Position numbers and translations under genes: made by a program. Positions 42,901 to 64,000 of a stretch of 64,000 bases of DNA are shown here, in pieces. The stretch covers positions 23,641,967 through 23,705,966 of the forward strand of contig NC_091022.1 in the NCBI RefSeq assembly GCF_041296385.1, given 5' to 3'. Numbering within the stretch: the stretch's first letter is position 1; each line of letters begins with the position of its first letter. Below the pieces are notes generated by a model that was not told the origin of the DNA, ran no database searches, and worked only from the letters and a program-made list of their open reading frames with translations. This DNA is from Aphelocoma coerulescens. Its lineage: Eukaryota > Chordata > Aves > Passeriformes > Corvidae.

Positions 42901-45022
42901 GGGACTGCTGTGACGCGACTGCTCTGAGGACAAAAACAGAGGTGTCCGACCCCACGTCACCCACCCACTGCCGTGTGAAGAGGAGCCACACTACAGCCAA
43001 GACCCAAACCTTCCCACCCACCCCTCCCCCCGGCTCCAAAGGCAAATTCCCATGGCAAGCATCCTGCGTGCCCCTTTTGGGCTGTGAAAACATGAGATAA
43101 ATCACCCACCGACTTTGCGGCGAGCGCTTCCAGAACATGCTGCTTCATCTAAAAAGCTGACGGCTCGGAGGACAATGAGCGCGAGCTCTGGTTTCAAAGC
43201 TGGGGAGACGGTTTAGACTCATCGGGGGGGACATGAAACACCAGAGCCAGGACCATCCTCCCTGTTCTCTGGCTCGCCCAGAGCAGCAGCAAGAAGAGCA
43301 GGGAGACGGTGCAGATGGGATGCTGGATACCAGCACTGGACATCACTTTGGGATGGGACTGTTCTGCTGCGTGTCCCACATGCACCTGACCCCAGTGCTC
43401 ACCCATATCCTTCACAAAATTGGAGAAAGGCTCATCAAAGCTATGTTTCAAAGACCAATAAATTTAAAAACGCATTTTAAAAGAAAATTCCTTTGTACAG
43501 ACCAGTCCTGGGTTTAGGCAACCATCACCTCTGTCTCCCACTCCCACACCAGCTCACTGCATCCACACCTTGGTGAGCAGGTCATTCAAACATCAACCTC
43601 AGCAATCTATTATCTTCCCTCCCCCTTAATTGTAAAGTTCCTGAAGAGCTACTCCTCTCCTTCTAAAAAAATTATTTGGTTTTGATTTTCACAGTATTTT
43701 AAACAGAATAATTAATCATCTTAACACAGCCCTTACAAAATATTAATTCACACCAAAAAAAAAGGGTATAATCATATCCTCAGAGAAAAACCTTTTGTGC
43801 TTCAGGAATTTTCACTGCATGTCCTCAGAGGTGGGAGGAGAATTCTTCTGCTGCCTCCTATTCTCACATCTCAAATGGAAAATGTTTTGATAATGCTCTT
43901 CTGAATGTAAACTGTACCAAATGGGATTTTTATTATTTTTTTAAGCAGCTTTTTTTCCCCAAAAGGAAGAACGGCTCTTTGAATAAACAGAGCGAACTAC
44001 CCATTCCTTACAACAAAAACCACCCTCCCTTCACTCATTCACGCCATACCCTGGCACAAGATGAATTTACATTTCGCATTTGCAAAACAAATTCTCGCCT
44101 AATGTCATTTTAATGGGAACGCGCATTTCAATCCCTTCCAATAACAACGAGGAGCGGCTTATTTTATGTAAAACACCCCAATTTGTTTCTCTTTAAATAT
44201 ATGCGGATTTCAGATGGGGACAGAGACTAGAAGGACAGCGCAAGAGGAACATTTCCTCTCCGGCAATCCCCCTCCGCCAGCGCACACAAAAGCCACCTGC
44301 CCATGGAGAGAAAACACGATGCCATTATTCCCATCATGATTCCCACGGCCCCTTCGACATCGAACGAGCGTGAGAAGGCCGCGCGCATCCGTCCCCGACA
44401 CGCGCACCACGCCAGGTCACCGGTGGTACCCGCGGGTCCACCCAACTTGTCACCCCCCACCGCTCCCTTCGCTCCCCCCGAGCCGGCCCCGCTGGACGTG
44501 CCCGTGCAGGGGCTGGGAAGAGGAAAGCGGGGGCTGATGCCACCCCTAGAGATGTTCCAAGCAGGGAAAACCCCTGATGGAGAGGACAAAGAGGAACGCT
44601 CGGAGCTGTTGGAGACATGCATTATGTTTATAAGCCTATCTCCCGGTGGAAGGGACGGGACCCCCGTGGGAGCCCGGGTGGGGGGTGCCCAGGAGTGAGA
44701 GGGACCGCGGCTGAGGGGTCGGGGGGGAGGGGGGGGCAGCAGGGCTGCGTGCCCTCCATACAACCCCCCGACGGGCACTCTGAAGGGGAGGAAGAGGGGT
44801 GGTCTTTATTTTCCCCCTCGGACTGGACGGATGGAGTCCAAGCCGCGGGCAGCTGCCCGTGACCCCCGGGCAGACGCACCCCCCGAGGCGGGGGGAGGTC
44901 ACCCTCGCCCTCCCACCCCCTCAAACCCCAAGCCGGCATCTTCCCGGAGGAGCGCACGGCGGTCCCTGCCCCCGGGGCAGGATTTTCCTGTCAAACCACA
45001 AGCGCGCCAGACAAAAGGCTTA

Positions 45023-46117
<1,095 letters not shown>

Positions 46118-49100
46118 CTACGGAGCTGGTGAGTGAGGGGCTGGCGGGCCATCCGAGCGCCAGGAGCCTGAGCTGGACCAGCAAGACAAAGGGGTACGGC
46201 GGCGCTGGAGGTGGCAGCATTGCCCCGGGGGTGTCGGCGGGATTGGCACTGCTCCTGCTGCGTGCCCGGCGGTGCCCGGCTCCAGCGCCCAGTCTGACCC
46301 ACTGGTTACCCAGCCTCACCCGTAATCACCTACGACTTTACCTCGAGTAGCAGAGCAGACAGCAGTGCCCTGCCCCTCCATGGGAATCAGGGTTTGCTTT
46401 TTCTTTTAAAGCCCTGTAGTGAAGATGCTCGTCCCACGCATCACAGCAGGGTGCTCGGGTACAGGAACCGCCAGGTCCTGTAGCACACATGGCCTTTGGG
46501 GGAGGAGATGAAAAACATAGGTACTGCTGGCTCCCAGGAGCTCTGTTGTGCTCTCAGGTGGGATTACATTAAAGGGACATATGAATATATTCAGCACATA
46601 CTGCCTGATTTGGCACCCCAAAATCCAGGGAGCTGACTCCTTGCCAGCATCTGCTTTCAGCCAAGGGTGATGGCAGCACCCCTGGGACCAGCACAGTGCA
46701 GGGCTGATGGTGAGAGGGCTCTGGCAACTGAAGTCCACTTCTCTGGGCCTCTACACCCCTGCCGTCGTTTTGCTGCTGTGTCCAGCAGGATACCATTCCA
46801 AGATTTTCCCCAGAAATACATTCCTGTTTTTGTGTCCTGTCTAAATTTAAGTCACAGACCTCTGAGGAAGAGCAGAGCTCACAGGTCTCCGAGTTCAGTT
46901 TTCTTGCTATTATTCTCAGTGCTTTGAGAATCCAAGACCGATTCCTTCCTATCTGCAGTTCAGTCACATCTAAACCATTACCGGTTACTCCCTTGTTGCA
47001 GAGATCTCCTATTTATTCTTACTGACAGAGCAAGAGTACATTTCCTGGAATAACAGGGCGACGCAATTAGGGAACAGGAAATAATTATGTGCCTTTGCTC
47101 TGCCACGAGATACCTCCAAGCCCAAGGTCTCCTCCGCAGGACACGGAGGGAAGGAATCAGGTCTCAGGCGGGTGGTGAGAGCAGGCAGAGCTACTGCAAT
47201 GAGAGATCTCCATTTTAGAGAGTAAGCCACAAGCTAATCGATGAAGGTCAGGAAGAGGTTTTCCTTGAAGGCTGAGGTGTTCCTTGCTGCCGTCGGTCTT
47301 GTTCAAAGTAATGAGTGCTAGCAGTGGCAGGGACTGGCCTGGGGCAGCAGCTGCACATAGATTTGTTTACACACAGATTTTCCCCAGGAATCACGTCCCC
47401 ATTTCTTTAACCCTGAAGGCCATTTTGCTCTCTGTAAGAGTTTGTTGCGACAGGAAGCACTTGCCACAGGAGCACTGCATTTTGCCCATCACCTCTGCTT
47501 GCTGTTGTGGTGACAGGTCCTGGGGTGAGAAGAAGGGCTTTGTCCACCTCTGCCCCTCCCTGGCTGCACAGAGGGACCTCACAGGGCCATCCCAAAGCAC
47601 CCTTCTGGCCCAAGGTGGAGCACACATTCCTGGCAGAGAGCAGTCCAGCAATCTCAAGCTTTTCTGATGATGGAAGCTGTGGGCTCTGGTGTCACAGAAT
47701 TTCTGCTGGCACCTGTGTCTCCCTGCAGCTTCCAGGGCTGCTCAGGCAGAGGGTGAGCCTGCATGAGAGCTGGGACACAGCACCCCAGCTTGTCTGGTCC
47801 CTCTTTCACCAGTCGCTGCAGAGCTCACCTAGTGACAACCTTGAGTGTCCTTACTTACGTCGTCCCCAGACAGTGCCAATAAAGAGGATTTTAGACTTCA
47901 GCCCAAGCAGGGATGTTATTCATTCCCAATGAGCTGACTTTTCACTGCATAAAACATATAATCCAGACTCAAATCAAAGCAAGGTCGGTGCAGTGGCTGG
48001 CCAGCCTGTCTCTGGGGGGTTAGCATGTTATTTCAAAGACAAACCAATCTATTTTTCCTCTCTCTCTTCATTCGGAACATTTGTTGCTCCCCATTCCTCC
48101 CCATCTTTCCCTGTACCTTTCATTACTGCCTTGAATTTTGCAAGGGGGAGAGCTCTTCTCCTCCCAGGGAACATGGACAGACCTCTTCTCCCTGGGGAAG
48201 GATGCAAAATGTCAGCCTCCCGCCCAGCCCCTGATGCTGCTCACTCAGAGCCTGGAACCAGGTACATCAATAATTCACTGCACGCTTTCCTGAGCCCGGC
48301 CATTTGCTGAGCCTCTACCACTGGCAGTCCTGGTTCTCCTCTTGTTTTCAAGGCTGTTTGGTCAGGGTCTGCTGCAACCCACCGACTCCAGCCAGAGGCC
48401 TGACCGCTGGTGTTATCCACCAAGTGCTGATTTCTCCTGTTGGCTCCAGGAAGTAAATTTTTTTGAGTCCCTGGCTAGAAAATGACTGACCAAAGGGGCT
48501 GGAGCCCCCGAGGCTTTAGACCACAGTCAGGCAGCAATGCAATGCAATATCCTGGGAAATTCTTTGGGTGCCAGCTCAATCAGAAGTCCAGCTTTAAGAT
48601 GCAGGTGCTGTGGAGTAAGAAAAACTGCTTTCATCTTACTCGAAACTAAATTCAAGGACCGTAAAAAGGAGAGAGGACAAGGATGCTGATGAGATGCCTC
48701 TGCAGGCTTCCTGGAACCTGTGCTTTGTTTTATGGCAGTCAAGGTAAGTGATGGCTGGTGCCACATCTCAGCCTAAGGGGATGTCACCTCCTTGGGTGCT
48801 CTCACCTGCACAGCTGCTCTTCTCTCTCCCCACTGTGCCCAAATCTCATCTTCACCAGAAAGACTGCCTTTCCCTGGGCATCTTCCCCCCTCTCTTGGAT
48901 GCTCCCATGCTGCTTTGACATTGCTTTGACTCCCAACAGTCAATGCTGCGCCCTCACTAACACGAATGACACTGCCTGAGCCTTTAGAGATGACAGCAGA
49001 GCTTTGCAAGGCCCAGGGAGCACCAGGGAAGTCCTGTGGTGACAGATGAAGACATACAAGGGCAGAAGAAGCTTTATGGCCCATTAATGATGGGAAAGAA

Positions 49101-54558: not shown

Positions 54559-54625
54559 CTGTGCAGTGTCAGCCGGCAGTGACCAGAGACCTCCTGGTTT
54601 GCACAGCGGGCTTCATTGAGCACAG
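54559..54625 (-). ncRNA. SELENOP2: SECIS element (form 2) in the SELENOP2 3' UTR
   Basis: The selenocysteine insertion sequence recruits SBP2 and eEFSec so that UGA is read as Sec. Read on the minus strand: the lower helix pairs CTGTGC (54620-54625) with GCACAG (54559-54564). The 5' core ATGA lies at 54613-54616 and the 3' core TGA at 54569-54571, giving the U-U, G-A, A-G non-Watson-Crick quartet. The upper helix pairs GCC-GC-GTG with CAC-GC-GGC, with two single mismatches. The unpaired AAA is at 54598-54600. A further mini-stem, CCAG/CTGG, closes an apical loop, which makes this form 2. It begins about 250 nt downstream of the stop codon, a normal position for a eukaryotic SECIS. Folded by hand. 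Confidence 0.95.
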
Positions 54626-54877
54626 AAAGGCAGGCAGTGGCAGAGAAAGGCTCAGAACTGAGCCATGGGGCTGAAAATGCAGCACTGAGCAGGGTCCAAG
54701 GGGAATTTCCATCCCTATCACAGCGTAGGAGTGCAACCGACACAGGGGATGCTGGAGGGAGTTGTTAAACCAGCGCTGCTGGTGACCAGCAGCCCAAAGC
54801 AAGTCCTTCCATGCCTCTGTGAAGTGAGTTGGGGTGGTCTGCACACTACTGGGTTCTGCGAGGCTGCCCAGCCTGGT

Positions 54878-56835
54878 TTAATGCTCATCCCCCTCCTTTT
54901 GCTTCTTCCCCTTGTGATGGAGCTGGCCATGGTCTCCATGGTGGTGGTGAGCATGGGTAGCAGGTTTGTGGTCCTCAGTTGGGTTTGTGCCCCTCTCGCT
55001 GCTGACCTTGTCATGGTGGTGAGGATGGAGGGGCTTGTGCTGGTGGATGGGGGTCTCTGACTCCATCCCCTCATGTTCAGGAGGTGAGCTCGGGGTTGCA
55101 TGACCCGCTGTGGTACTGTTAGCCTGAGGAAAGTAACACAAGGACTGGTGTGGTATGTGAATGCCCACAGAGCCCTGCAGAAAGACTGGGAGCACAGCTC
55201 TGAGCTGGGAAGAAGGCAGACCAGCATCCATCATACAGAAAACTGTGGGTCAGAGCAAAGGCTCTCCAGTCCTGACCCAGGGCACAGGGAGCAGAGGAGA
55301 GGCTGGAGCACACAGGGCACAAGCCTCTACACCAGCATCCCTTGGCTCAAGCTGTCTATGGTCCAGAAAAGTGACTTTGCATTTAGTATTTCTGGATGTA
55401 TTTTTCTCCTGGGAAGTGACTAATCACCTTCCAAGCTCAGAGCTACACCCTTTTCTCTGCTCTGAGCTTGCCACCTCTGCATCCACTGCCTGCCCCTTTC
55501 TTATATCAGAACAGTCCTAGTTAGCATTCCCAGACCTGGTATATGACCCCTTTAGTCAATTCCTTTTCAGCTGGAAAGCTCTGACCTATTTACTGTGCCC
55601 TTATTCCAGACCTTTCATCACCTTCCCTCTCAAACACAGCCGAGGGCAGCTGCCAGTCTGGAACCCCTCCCCAACACGGAGATAAGATTGTTTTTGCTGA
55701 TGTGTAGTGCCGGAGGACAGAAGGCATCCCGGCTCCAGCGAGCATTCCAGCTCTTACCTCCTGGGTAGTGTTGGGGTAGAGGGAGCAGTTGCCACAGAAG
55801 TCCTTGATGTGGCTGGAGCGGATGGCTGCCTCCACATAGGGGAAGTGGAGGAAGCTGAAGGGCAACTGGATGTGGAAAGCCAGGCGGCCACACCTGAGGG
55901 GAGAAGCCACGGCCTGGCTCAAGATGGGGGACTGGAGTCCCCCCAGCCCAGCCATCAGGGGAGATTTTGGAAGCCCATCAAACGCTCTGTAATGCCCAGA
56001 AAAGCCTCGAGTCGGGGCACTCGAGGCGAGTCGGGGGACACTCACCGGTCATAAACAAGGAAGTCGTCCTTGTCACCCCCCAGGACCTGCCAGACGTCAG
56101 GGTCCTCCTGCTCCGGCTGGAAGACGGGGACGCCGGGCGGGGCATGGCGCTCCAGCTCCGGCAGCATGGCGCGGGACAGCGGCGCCTTCTCGTTGACGAT
56201 CATGTAGCGCACATCGGCCATGCCCTGCCGGGCCAGCCGCTCCCGCAGGCCCCCGAGGCTGCGGGAAGGAGGCGCTGGGAGGGGCTCCCGGGGCAGGGGG
56301 CTCCCGGGACAGGGGGCTGCCGGGGCAGGGGGCTCCCGGGACAGGGGGCTCCCGGGGCAGGGGGCTCCCGGGACAGGGGGCTCCCGGGGCAGGGGGCTCC
56401 CGGGACAGGGGGCTGCCGGGGCAGGGGGCTCCCGGGGCAGGGGGCTCCCGGGGCAGGGGGCTGCCGGGACAGGGGGCTCCCGGGGCAGGGGGCTCCCGGG
56501 ACAGGGGGCTGCCGGGACAGGGGGCTCCCGGGGCAGGGGGCTCCCGGGGCAGGGGGCTCCCGGGACAGGGGGCTGCCATGCGCTCCCGAGGCGGCGGGGA
56601 TTGTTCTGGGGAGGGGGAGCGGGGCTCACCTGTGGGCCTGCCTCAGGCAGAACTGTCAGCTGGCCTTCAGCAGGGCCACCACCGTCACCTGCCCTGCCTT
56701 CCCCTCCATGGGGCTCGAGCCATTGATGGTCCATGCTGGTGCCTCCTGGCAGATTTGGCTGCTGTTGGCTGCCTCCTCGGAGGCCGAGGCCAGCCCCAGC
56801 CAGGCGGCCAGGGCCAGCACCAGCAGCCCCCCCAT
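54878..56835 (-). CDS. SELENOP2: selenoprotein P2 (SelPb), complete four-coding-exon gene
   Basis: A secreted selenoprotein P-family protein with one selenocysteine. Coding exons are 56835-56630, 56258-56046, 55893-55758 and 55123-54878; total 801 nt, 266 residues, intron phases 2, 2 and 0, all with GT-AG ends. Residues 1-19 form a signal peptide (M-G-G-L-L-V-L-A-L-A...). A thioredoxin-like domain follows: T-V-V-A-L-L-K-A-S-U with Sec60 in U-Q-F-C (60-63), F-L-V-Y-D-R at 135-140, C-G-R-L-A-F at 141-146, F-P-Y-V-E at 157-161, and C-G-N-C at 173-176. N-glycosylation sequons are at 24, 38, 175, 181 and 187. The last exon (186-266) is rich in histidine (18 of 81), with H-P-H-H-H and H-A-H-H-H-H clusters, and ends at TAA. 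It lacks the Sec-rich tail of SELENOP1, so a redox role fits better than bulk selenium transport (inference). The start has a downstream hydrophobic signal and lies 14 nt inside a good acceptor (CCCCTGCCAG). Confidence 0.95.
56285..56572. repeat. 16-bp x 18 GC-rich minisatellite in SELENOP2 intron
   Basis: Eighteen uninterrupted 16-bp units of the form CT(C/G)CCGGG(G/A)CAGGGGG, with a nineteenth truncated unit. No unit gains or loses a base; variation is confined to unit positions 3 and 9. It occupies most of the 371-bp intron (56259-56629) between the Sec exon and the next exon. Because 16 is not a multiple of three and no unit holds a stop, long artificial reading frames with a 16-residue period open in most frames on both strands. 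The five-G runs recur every 16 bp on the plus (template) strand. Confidence 0.98.
56656..56658 (-). other. SELENOP2: selenocysteine codon TGA (Sec60)
   Basis: The in-frame TGA falls exactly where selenoprotein P has its N-terminal Sec, after A-L-L-K-A-S and before Q-F-C. The reading continues for eight more codons, then splices cleanly in phase to a conserved exon. With the SECIS at 54559-54625 this is recoding rather than termination. A standard gene caller would stop here and split the gene. Confidence 0.96.
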
Positions 56836-57539
56836 CCTGGACCCCGGCCCTGGCAGGGGGACATGGGGTGTTACTCTCCTCCCAGATCCACTGCAACCCC
56901 AAACTGTCTCCCTGCACCCTGCTCCAGGGCAGACAAGGACTGGTGGGCAGTGTTGGCCTGGTTCTGGCACTGGGAGCCAGGACCCCCACCCCAGGGGGCA
57001 AGGAAAGGGGGATGAGGTGGGGAATTGGAGCACCCAGCTCCTTGCTACCATCTTTTGTGGACACCCAGTGCCACAGCATCCTGCTCTCCCCTGGCAGTGA
57101 ACACCCACTCCATACATCAAGAGATGAAGGTGCTCGTCCTCCCATGGGCCTTCTCCACTTCTCTGATCCCACAAAACAAACCCAGCCCCAGACAGAGAGC
57201 TGTCTTTACCCCAAAAGGGAGCAGGGATACAGCCCTCGTCATCTCAGCCACCAGTGAGCAGTTACTGGGACAGAAATGGTTTCACCTTCAGGTCACCTTG
57301 AGAGTCCTTGATGCCCCACAAAGTGCTTTGGGGGTACACGGAGCCTTTAAAGCCCTTGAGTCCCAACATCTGTCTGAAGCCCCTTCCTCTCACAGCCCCC
57401 TAACCCTGCCCACCCCAAGATATTCCCCATTCCTCTAGTACCCAGCACATTTAATGGGCAAGGGGGAGGATATGGGTCTGGGAGGGATGATCTGGGGAAG
57501 GAGCAAGGAGATGCAGGATCTGGTCAGTGTGGATGTGCC

Positions 57540-59260: not shown

Positions 59261-60037
59261 TTCCCATGTGCGCACCGCGGCCACACGCGGTCCCTCCGCC
59301 CTGGGCTGGTGGGAAGGAGCGGGGAGAGCTTTGTGCACACGCCTTCCAGGGGGCAGGTGAAAAGGAATATTTCAGCAGGTGTGTGGCCCCCAGCCCACTG
59401 CACACCTGTGGGGTCTGGCCAGGGCGGCTCGTGCATGCCATGGAGTCGGGAAGCCTCGGTGGGATGCCCTGGAGAGGTGATGCCGACTGGGGTTTTGGAC
59501 AGATCTTTTTTTCCCCCTTGAGTGTCACAGCTATTTGGATGGCTGGAGAGGAAGGTCACTTGGCCCAAGTGTCCTTCCTCTGTGCCCCTAGGGCAAGGTC
59601 ATTGTTCCCAGCCTGTTGCAAAGAGCATGGTGGCTCCATGGCCTGTTGGGGAGGGGAAGGGCACATCAGCCTGTCGAGACCCCACTGCTCCCCTCCATTC
59701 GTGGGACACACGTGACAGGCGCTGGGGCAGCACAGGAACATTTTAGGTGTAACCAGTGTGTTGCTCCATGTTTACCAGTCCAACCTCCATGTTCCTGGTA
59801 CAGGACATTCCCACCACAACCCTTGTCCCCATAATCTTGCTTACACATGCAGCACAACTCCTGCACCGGGAATCCCTGCTGACCTCCCTGTGGCACTCCC
59901 AAAGGACACAGGGCTCCAGAGGGGACCCTCTGGGCTGCAGCCAGGGCTTGAGGTTTTCGTCCTCTGGAACCTCAGGAATAGGGCAGCAGAGTGAAGGGCT
60001 GGTAGGATGGCTTGGCATCCTTGGGCAGAGACCCGCT

Positions 60038-60048
60038 TATTTAAAATA
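60038..60048 (+). promoter_or_regulatory. HPDL: TATA-like element upstream of HPDL
   Basis: TATTTAAAATA lies about 150 nt upstream of the HPDL start codon in an otherwise GC-rich setting. It could support a proximal start without the 5' UTR intron, as an alternative to the CpG-island promoter. No experimental support is available here. Confidence 0.3.
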
Positions 60049-60193
60049 CACACAATTAAAAAGTGCAAGTTTACACACATTTGCATCTGTGCTTGCAAAC
60101 ACAGGTGGGCTCTGTGCAAGGTGTGGGAGTGACTTCTCCCCTGGGCCAGCAGCCCCCCTGACCCCCTGCATCCTCCCCACAGCCTGCTCAGCC

Positions 60194-61372
60194 ATGGCAG
60201 CCTCACTGAGCCGCCCCTGCTTCATCTCCCTCCACCTGCCCTACAGGCAGGGCTGGGCCCAGCACCTGGCCAACACCTTTCGCTTTCAGCCAGTGGCCAT
60301 GCGGGAGACATCCTGTGTCCGGCAGCTGGCCTTGCGACGGGAATCTGCCATCTTCCTCGTCAACGAGCGCCTGGCACCTGCCAGCACCTCATCCCAGGAT
60401 TTCCTCTATGACATAGACCCCCAGCCCGCCTTGGGCACGGCCTCCAATGTCTGCTTCGAGGTGGATGATGTGCCAGGGCTCTGCAAGCAGCTGCAGAGCC
60501 AGGGATGCTCCTTGCTGGTGCCCCCCACTGAGCTAAGCGATGACGGTGGTTCTGTCACCTACGGGGTGGTGAGCTCAGTCGTGGGCAATATCAGTCACAC
60601 CCTTTTGGACCGATCCTGTTATCGGGGACACTTCCTGCCCGGCTTCCAGCCCATCCAAGGAGCCCCCTCTGCCACAGGGGATGGGATCAAGATCACACAC
60701 TTTGACCACATCACGTACGTCTGTCCCCGGGGCGGTGCCCGGGCGGCTCTGGACTGGTACCAGCGCTGCTTCGGCTTCCACCGCTTCCATCTGAATCCCC
60801 AGGAGAGACCAGCTGAGGGGTACGTGCTGGGGGGGCAGGGGGTGGGCATGCTGCTCCTTGCATTGCAGAGCACCCGGGGCACCCCAGCACGTGGCTGCAA
60901 GCTGGTCTTTGCCGAGTCCCTCTCCCAGAATGGCACCAACCAGGTTGACATGTTCCTGGAGCAGCACGGCGGGGCGGGGATCCAGCACGTTGGCCTCTGC
61001 ACCACCGACATTGTCAGCACGACCAGGGCTCTGCAGCAGCGGGGGGCACGGTTCTTCACACCCCCCACCACCTATTACAGCCAGGGGGGCAAAGCAGAGG
61101 AGATCCAGAGGGCCGGGCAGGATCCCCACATGCTGGCAGAGCTTGGCATCCTCCTGGACACCACAGTGCCTGGGGACAAGGGCCGGCTGGGCACTGATGC
61201 CACGGAGAGCCCCGCTCAGGAATACTTGATGCAGATCTTCACCCATCCCATCTTCTCCGAGGAGACCTTCTTCCTGGAGCTCATTGACCGTCGGGGCGCG
61301 CCGGGCTTCGGGGAAGGCAATATCCGGGCGCTGTGGAAAGCTGTGCAGGTCTACATGGACCAGCAACAGTAG
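60194..61372 (+). CDS. HPDL: 4-hydroxyphenylpyruvate dioxygenase-like protein
   Basis: A 392-residue protein from one uninterrupted coding exon, with the start in strong context (GCCATGG). The frame is open further upstream, but that sequence shows no family similarity and precedes a good acceptor. Two vicinal-oxygen-chelate domains are visible: an N-terminal one (about 8-150, with L-A-L-R-R and A-I-F-L-V-N-E) and a catalytic C-terminal one (about 165-385). The iron ligands of the family are intact: His172 in F-D-H-I-T-Y, His265 in I-Q-H-V-G-L and Glu362 in F-F-L-E-L-I. The ending G-F-G-E-G-N-I-R-A-L-W-K-A is a strong family signature. The human protein is mitochondrial and converts 4-hydroxyphenylpyruvate-derived 4-hydroxymandelate towards coenzyme Q head-group synthesis; the same role is inferred here. 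It is about 20 residues longer than human HPDL, mostly from an insertion at about 323-344. Confidence 0.96.
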   Translation: MAASLSRPCFISLHLPYRQGWAQHLANTFRFQPVAMRETSCVRQLALRRESAIFLVNERLAPASTSSQDFLYDIDPQPALGTASNVCFEVDDVPGLCKQLQSQGCSLLVPPTELSDDGGSVTYGVVSSVVGNISHTLLDRSCYRGHFLPGFQPIQGAPSATGDGIKITHFDHITYVCPRGGARAALDWYQRCFGFHRFHLNPQERPAEGYVLGGQGVGMLLLALQSTRGTPARGCKLVFAESLSQNGTNQVDMFLEQHGGAGIQHVGLCTTDIVSTTRALQQRGARFFTPPTTYYSQGGKAEEIQRAGQDPHMLAELGILLDTTVPGDKGRLGTDATESPAQEYLMQIFTHPIFSEETFFLELIDRRGAPGFGEGNIRALWKAVQVYMDQQQ

Positions 61373-62847: not shown

Positions 62848-63879
62848 TCAGGGGGCACTTGGTACCCGGAGAAAGGCGTGGAGGGAGAGCTGTGTCCCAG
62901 GGCAGGTGCTGCCTGCTCCCTGTGCCTTTGCCCCGCGCTTCCGCTTGGAGCCCTGCAGGAGACACAGCAGGGCTAGTCCAGACCCCAAGGGCCCCCATGG
63001 TCTCCAGGGATTCCCCCTGGGTACTGGGGACACCCAGGGGCAATGCCAGTCAGGCAAGTTCCCCTGCCACAGGCTGGGGATGCTCCTTGGCCTGATCCCA
63101 AACCCCAGGGGGGTTCAGTGTGGCACACCAGGAGCTGTCCCACAGCATTGGGGCCCCAGGCACCCTGGAGCACTGCTCACCTTGACAGGGCTGCTCTCCT
63201 GCCTGCGCTGCTTCTCGTGAGCTTTCAGCACCTGAAGGAAGAACAAGAGAACCCAGAGCTGAACAGCAGCAGGGTCCTGGAGCTGGGACATGGATTCCAT
63301 GGAGCTGGAGGAGATTCCAGGGATTTTCTCAAGATAACTGAGGGAAGGGGGGAAAGGCCCAGGTGCCCCCCATACCTTCTTCATGGCTGTGGACACAGCT
63401 GAGGCATGGAACTCATTCTCTGTCACCCAGCGGGATGGGGACAAGGCAGGGTCCAGGGTCACGTCCCCATCCAAGGGCAGGGAGTAGACCACATATGTCT
63501 GGTGGATGTGGGAGAAGATGTGGGTGACCTGTGAGGGGATGGAAAGACACATGAGATGGGCAGCTGACAGGCACTGGGGGCTGCAAAGTGCACTGAGTCT
63601 GCCAGGGCTCTGAGAAGTGGGGTAGAGCTTGGGAGGGGTGACAGTGGGGAAGGGAGACCCTTGTCTTGTGTGATACATCCCCCAGGGCTGAGCACAGGGG
63701 GCTCACACTGCAACCCTCCAGCTCCAGGCTCACCTCTCCGATAAACCGCAGGCCTTTGGCTGCCACGGGCCGCCCCATCCATGCCTGAAGGTGATCAGCC
63801 AGCTCCTCCCTCTCCCTCTCCTCCTGCAGATCTTGAGCCAGCGGGAGACTTGGGAACTCCCAGAGTCCAGCCAGGAGAC
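62848..63879 (-). CDS. MUTYH: adenine DNA glycosylase MUTYH, last four coding exons (partial)
   Basis: MUTYH removes adenine mispaired with 8-oxoguanine in base-excision repair. Exons in order: 63879-63734, 63528-63376, 63231-63181 and 62952-62848, all GT-AG; the first is entered in phase 1 and the other junctions are phase 0. The first encodes G-L-L-A-G-L-W-E-F-P-S, the start of the C-terminal NUDIX-like domain that senses 8-oxoG. The second gives V-T-H-I-F-S-H-I-H-Q-T-Y and, at its end, E-F-H-A-S-A-V-S-T-A-M-K-K, both closely matching vertebrate MUTYH. The third is a short 17-residue basic linker. The last (34 residues) starts G-S-K-R-K-R, then has Q-L-S-L-H-A-F-L, a PCNA-interacting-peptide-like motif, and stops at TGA 62848-62850. 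The [4Fe-4S] and glycosylase domains lie beyond the window end. The last-exon frame is fixed by G-S-K-R and the PIP-like motif. Confidence 0.93.
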
Positions 63880-64000
63880 CTGGGAAGGAGGCATGACAAA
63901 AATGTGAGACAGCAAGGGACACATCCAGGGACACTGAGCCTCATCACAGCCCCAAGGGGCTCCTTTCTCCACTCCAGCAACCAGTGCCTCTCCCTCTATC
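63880..64000 (-). other. MUTYH: MUTYH intron (partial)
   Basis: Sequence upstream of the acceptor at 63880-63881 (minus strand ...CCTTCCCAG) shows no further MUTYH coding similarity, so the preceding exon is outside the window. Confidence 0.75.

Follow-up and report, generated by a model that had tools for sequence, protein, structure and literature searches.

The window analysed here, a stretch of 64 kb from a bird-like vertebrate genome, carries on its minus strand what is almost certainly (probability about 0.96) an intact gene orthologous to selenoprotein P2 (SELENOP2, also named SelPb or SEPP2). This identity, already proposed by the first-pass annotation, is supported by the Pfam family of the conceptual protein, a UxxC motif with a single in-frame TGA, a His-rich tail, a SECIS element in the 3' UTR, the amplicon lengths of published SEPP2 primers and the neighbouring genes. 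For this gene, we infer transcription, Sec insertion, secretion and a redox or heparin/metal-binding function. The gene as such is already known, since SELENOP2 has been described in chicken, turkey and fish, and the single Sec, the exon plan and the SECIS type of the SelPb family are in print. The copy described here is an ordinary relative of these genes.

Gene model and family assignment

Rebuilt from the sequence, the gene consists of four coding exons separated by GT..AG introns (Table 1). Their phases are consistent and join them into one frame, as the first-pass annotation had it, and it had correctly placed the start codon, the TGA, the first junction and the SECIS. The donor following coding exon 1 (after 56630) reads GTGAGC and the acceptor before 56258 reads GCAG. 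The spliced coding frame comprises 801 bases, or 266 codons, and the third-position GC of coding exons 1 to 4 is 0.88, 0.90, 0.87 and 0.62, respectively. Upstream of the ATG lies a candidate acceptor, and a 5'-noncoding exon would probably be spliced onto the ATG exon. In zebrafish and medaka, the SelPb gene is reported to have five exons, the first of which is noncoding (PMC6301783).

Table 1. Features of the SELENOP2 gene and of its surroundings in the window.
Feature	Position	Strand	Remarks
Coding exon 1	56630..56835	-	ATG begins at 56835; opens signal-like (by eye), then holds the first part of the SelP N-terminal domain and the predicted Sec codon
In-frame TGA, codon 60	56656..56658	-	U60-Q-F-C63; predicted selenocysteine
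Intron after coding exon 1	56259..56629	-	371 nt, of which 294 nt are a 16-bp minisatellite
Coding exon 2	56046..56258	-	Pfam SelP_N match on its own
Coding exon 3	55758..55893	-	Pfam SelP_N match on its own; holds the turkey and chicken forward primer sites
Coding exon 4	54878..55123	-	81 residues, 18 of them His; TAA stop at 54880-54878
Acceptor-like CCCCCTGCCAG	14 nt before ATG	-	Candidate, by pattern
SECIS (Rfam SECIS_1)	54559..54625	-	3' UTR, same strand as the gene; model positions 1-64 of 64
AATAAA	54124..54129	-	Candidate poly(A) signal, pattern only; the 3' UTR would be ~770 nt
ORF similar to 4-hydroxyphenylpyruvate dioxygenase	59753-61369	+	PDB match, E 2.3e-32
MUTYH-type adenine DNA glycosylase ORFs	63416-63940, 63118-63702	-	Near the window edge

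Indirect evidence for a transcript comes from published amplicons, with which the exon plan agrees. The primer pairs for turkey SEPP2 (PMC4466519) and chicken SEPP2 (PMC4821606) were placed where they fit the spliced model best, and there the turkey pair spans 120 bp and the chicken pair 107 bp, in each case the published size; on the unspliced sequence, the same pairs span 754 and 741 bp. Forward and reverse primers match at 16/20 and 17/20 bases for turkey and at 21/23 and 15/22 bases for chicken, mismatches that make it improbable that the sequence comes from either bird. The turkey reverse primer spans the predicted exon 3/4 junction, with 17 of its 20 bases matching on the spliced model against 15 on the unspliced sequence, and the best of 300 shuffles reached 15. 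The site of the chicken reverse primer rests on the exact amplicon length, because a fit of 15/22 is also reached by shuffles (best of 300: 16). The exon 3/4 junction thus agrees with the amplicon lengths of both species.

The 266-residue conceptual protein matches Pfam SelP_N (PF04592) over residues 25-255 with an E-value of 8.7e-70 and 235.1 bits (cut-off 23.2), and the match runs across the TGA codon. Searched separately, coding exon 1 with its TGA written as U (residues 25-67) matches profile positions 2-44 (E 1.4e-13), exon 2 positions 47-116 (E 6.9e-20) and exon 3 positions 118-161 (E 2.2e-16). The three matches are collinear and each exceeds the curated cut-off, while exon 4 alone, which encodes the His-rich tail, has no Pfam match. 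Five N-glycosylation sequons are present in the protein, and its N-terminus looks signal-like by eye. The one NCBIfam match, to a thioredoxin-fold (seleno)protein domain, is weak (E 0.0052, 16.7 bits vs a cut-off of 100). The single match in a PDB search with the protein (E 0.45) was put down to chance.

The in-frame TGA and the SECIS element

The TGA is the sole internal stop of the 266-codon frame. It lies within a UxxC motif (U-Q-F-C) and, as the first-pass annotation had noticed, it sits at the Sec site of the family, and reading it as a stop would yield a product of 59 residues because it is codon 60. The 206 codons that follow are open, which was equalled in only 70 of 20000 base shuffles of the post-TGA sequence. 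No further in-frame TGA occurs before the TAA in the spliced frame, and a Sec-rich C-terminal region is lacking. Between the Sec codon and the end of coding exon 1 lie 26 nt. In SelP genes, the UxxC motif has been placed in the first coding exon (PMC6301783; UxxC also in PMC2397514), and the position of the intron that follows this exon has been described as ancestral (PMC5133445). Taken from the sequence, codon 60 is probably read as selenocysteine rather than as a stop.

A matching SECIS in the 3' UTR had likewise been claimed, and it is found as a full-length match to SECIS_1 with 23.9 bits, below the gathering score of 35. A default-threshold Rfam scan of the window reported nothing, because the score lies under this value. 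The element was the best of nine RNA-family matches in a 3-kb scan (E 0.16), and when both strands of the whole 64-kb window were scanned with E-values allowed up to 10, it was the sole SECIS among the four matches listed and the second best of them (E 3.5); these E-values count 4227 families and would be about 4227 times smaller for SECIS_1 alone. A crude SECIS motif scan of both strands was unspecific, with eight places passing, this element included, and a place at 48071 on the minus strand tying with it at 9/12 pairs.

The landmarks of the element are an ATGA from 54616 and a TGA at 54571-54569, which delimit a core of 48 nt; the SECIS listed for turkey SEPP2 occupies positions 566-614 (PMC4466519). 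The ATGA starts 262 nt beyond the stop codon, compared with 237 nt in the turkey mRNA as computed from the published table (PMC4466519). The 67 bases fold at -27.3 kcal/mol with a predicted stem beyond the A-rich bulge, and this apical mini-stem, as modelled, would fit type 2, the type reported for SelPb SECIS elements (PMC5133445).

It is highly improbable that the gene died recently, with the TGA as a true stop and the remainder decaying. In the standard code TGA does mean stop, and the SECIS score is below the curated cut-off, but a SECIS match does exist, and the splice sites, the 206 post-TGA codons and the UxxC motif are all intact.

The intron beside the Sec codon might offer a way around the TGA. 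On the minus strand, the register of exon 2 has no stop over the 387 codons between 57205 and 56045, which take in this intron and sequence upstream of it, with ATGs at 57145, 57079, 56734, 56221, 56203 and 56167. A gene caller could therefore build a model that skips the TGA, one way in which the mis-annotation thought likely in the first-pass annotation might arise. An alternative 5' end that enters exon 2 in frame would give a Sec-free isoform, for which the stop-free register and its several ATGs speak. Such an isoform is nonetheless hardly to be expected: the Pfam match of the open register is confined to its exon-2 part (residues 317-387), whereas the 313 residues that precede exon 2, minisatellite included, gave no Pfam match with an E-value of 1 or less, and it is the exon-1 peptide that matches SelP_N (E 1.4e-13). 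The minisatellite itself, at 56281-56574, was delimited by TRF as 18.4 copies of a 16-bp unit with 92% matches, and its units differ at two positions. Its copy number might vary between individuals and alter splicing beside the UGA, and thus shift the balance between Sec insertion, mRNA decay and a Sec-free isoform, an idea that we consider very unlikely. For the gene as a whole, an intact SELENOP2 with a recoded UGA is the reading retained below.

Chromosomal neighbourhood

At higher window coordinates than the gene, the ORF on the plus strand is, judged from its match, probably HPDL, an intronless gene that it would fit. The MUTYH-type ORFs match an adenine DNA glycosylase in PDB (E 3.7e-6) and the family NUDIX_4 (E 3.3e-7, 30.5 bits vs a cut-off of 35). 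On the other side, a CpG-rich stretch on the minus strand (44900-46120) has the look of a coding first exon. This exon, at 45-46 kb, resembles the one that begins ZSWIM5 and is a candidate for it; PDB and Pfam searches with it gave no informative match. ZSWIM5, HPDL and MUTYH neighbour each other on human 1p34. SelPb has been reported at a conserved locus and as missing from the human counterpart on chromosome 1 (PMC6301783); a literature search found no paper joining SelPb with ZSWIM5.

Pfam was run on 150 ORFs: 149 of the 158 that have at least 60 codons and a start beyond 46300 but not within 54600-56900, together with the ORF at 45023-46117, the sole one scanned from below 46.3 kb. Among 74 of the ORFs scanned, the glyoxalase (HPDL) and NUDIX (MUTYH) families were found, and marginal matches to VSG_B (E 0.0034) and TilS_C (E 0.0085) were put down to chance. 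The 76 further ORFs, at 46.3-54.8 kb, gave no match at E up to 0.01. ARAGORN found no tRNA, and neither of two exact forms of the bird CR1 repeat end was found. Positions 1-44000 show a steady negative GC skew and a positive AT skew, as is expected of a long intron transcribed from the minus strand.

SELENOP1 (SelPa) has the same N-terminal domain as SELENOP2, and a match to the shared Pfam family would be expected from it as well. That the gene is SELENOP1 has nevertheless practically no chance, as no additional in-frame TGA lies ahead of the TAA here, while the turkey SEPP1 mRNA carries 12 UGAs in its cloned part (PMC4466519), and the neighbours are of the HPDL/MUTYH type.

Expected expression and comparison with known genes

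In the SELENOP2 mRNA, coding exon 1 would hold a single Sec UGA close to its end, and the 3' UTR a single type-2-like SECIS. Through the SECIS, SBP2 and EFSec would bring Sec-tRNA to the UGA, which is the established mechanism of Sec delivery. A tethering role of eIF4a3 in SECIS delivery has been hypothesized (PMC5133445). The product would be a secreted precursor of 266 residues that combines a thioredoxin-like UxxC domain with a His-rich tail and lacks the Sec-rich tail of SELENOP1. Its synthesis would probably take place mainly in the liver, as in turkey, where SEPP2 is reported as high in liver but not in any other tissue examined (PMC4466519); liver expression is reported for chicken as well as for turkey (PMC4466519, PMC4821606).

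Under selenium shortage, translation would end at the UGA, ahead of three junctions, and decay of the mRNA would therefore be predicted. The published selenium response of SelPb mRNA is mixed. In chicken liver, SEPP2 mRNA showed no significant regulation over 10 selenium levels (PMC4821606), whereas a review cites work on chicken kidney in which every one of the 25 selenoprotein mRNAs, that of SelPb among them, differed between Se-treated birds and controls (PMC6680911).

By itself, the gene answers no open question. It offers a clean test case for the annotation of genes with a recoded UGA and adds one more apparently intact SelPb to comparative work on the loss in placental mammals. The absence of SelPb from these mammals, as stated in the first-pass annotation, is broadly in print, with the reservation that the armadillo is an exception (PMC2397514).

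Compared with SELENOP1, the gene here is without the Sec-rich C-terminal region and has one SECIS match only; the intron positions of SelPa are said to be common with those of SelPb (PMC5133445). Bird SELENOP2 is reported to be a single-Sec selenoprotein (PMC2397514), as the gene here is predicted to be. SEPP2 is already treated as a selenoprotein in chicken and turkey (PMC4466519, PMC4821606), and the turkey SECIS lies in the 3' UTR, as it does here (PMC4466519). The short form is also that of fish and frog SelPb. In the frog gene, however, Cys occupies the Sec site (PMC2397514), whereas the TGA is kept in the gene described here.
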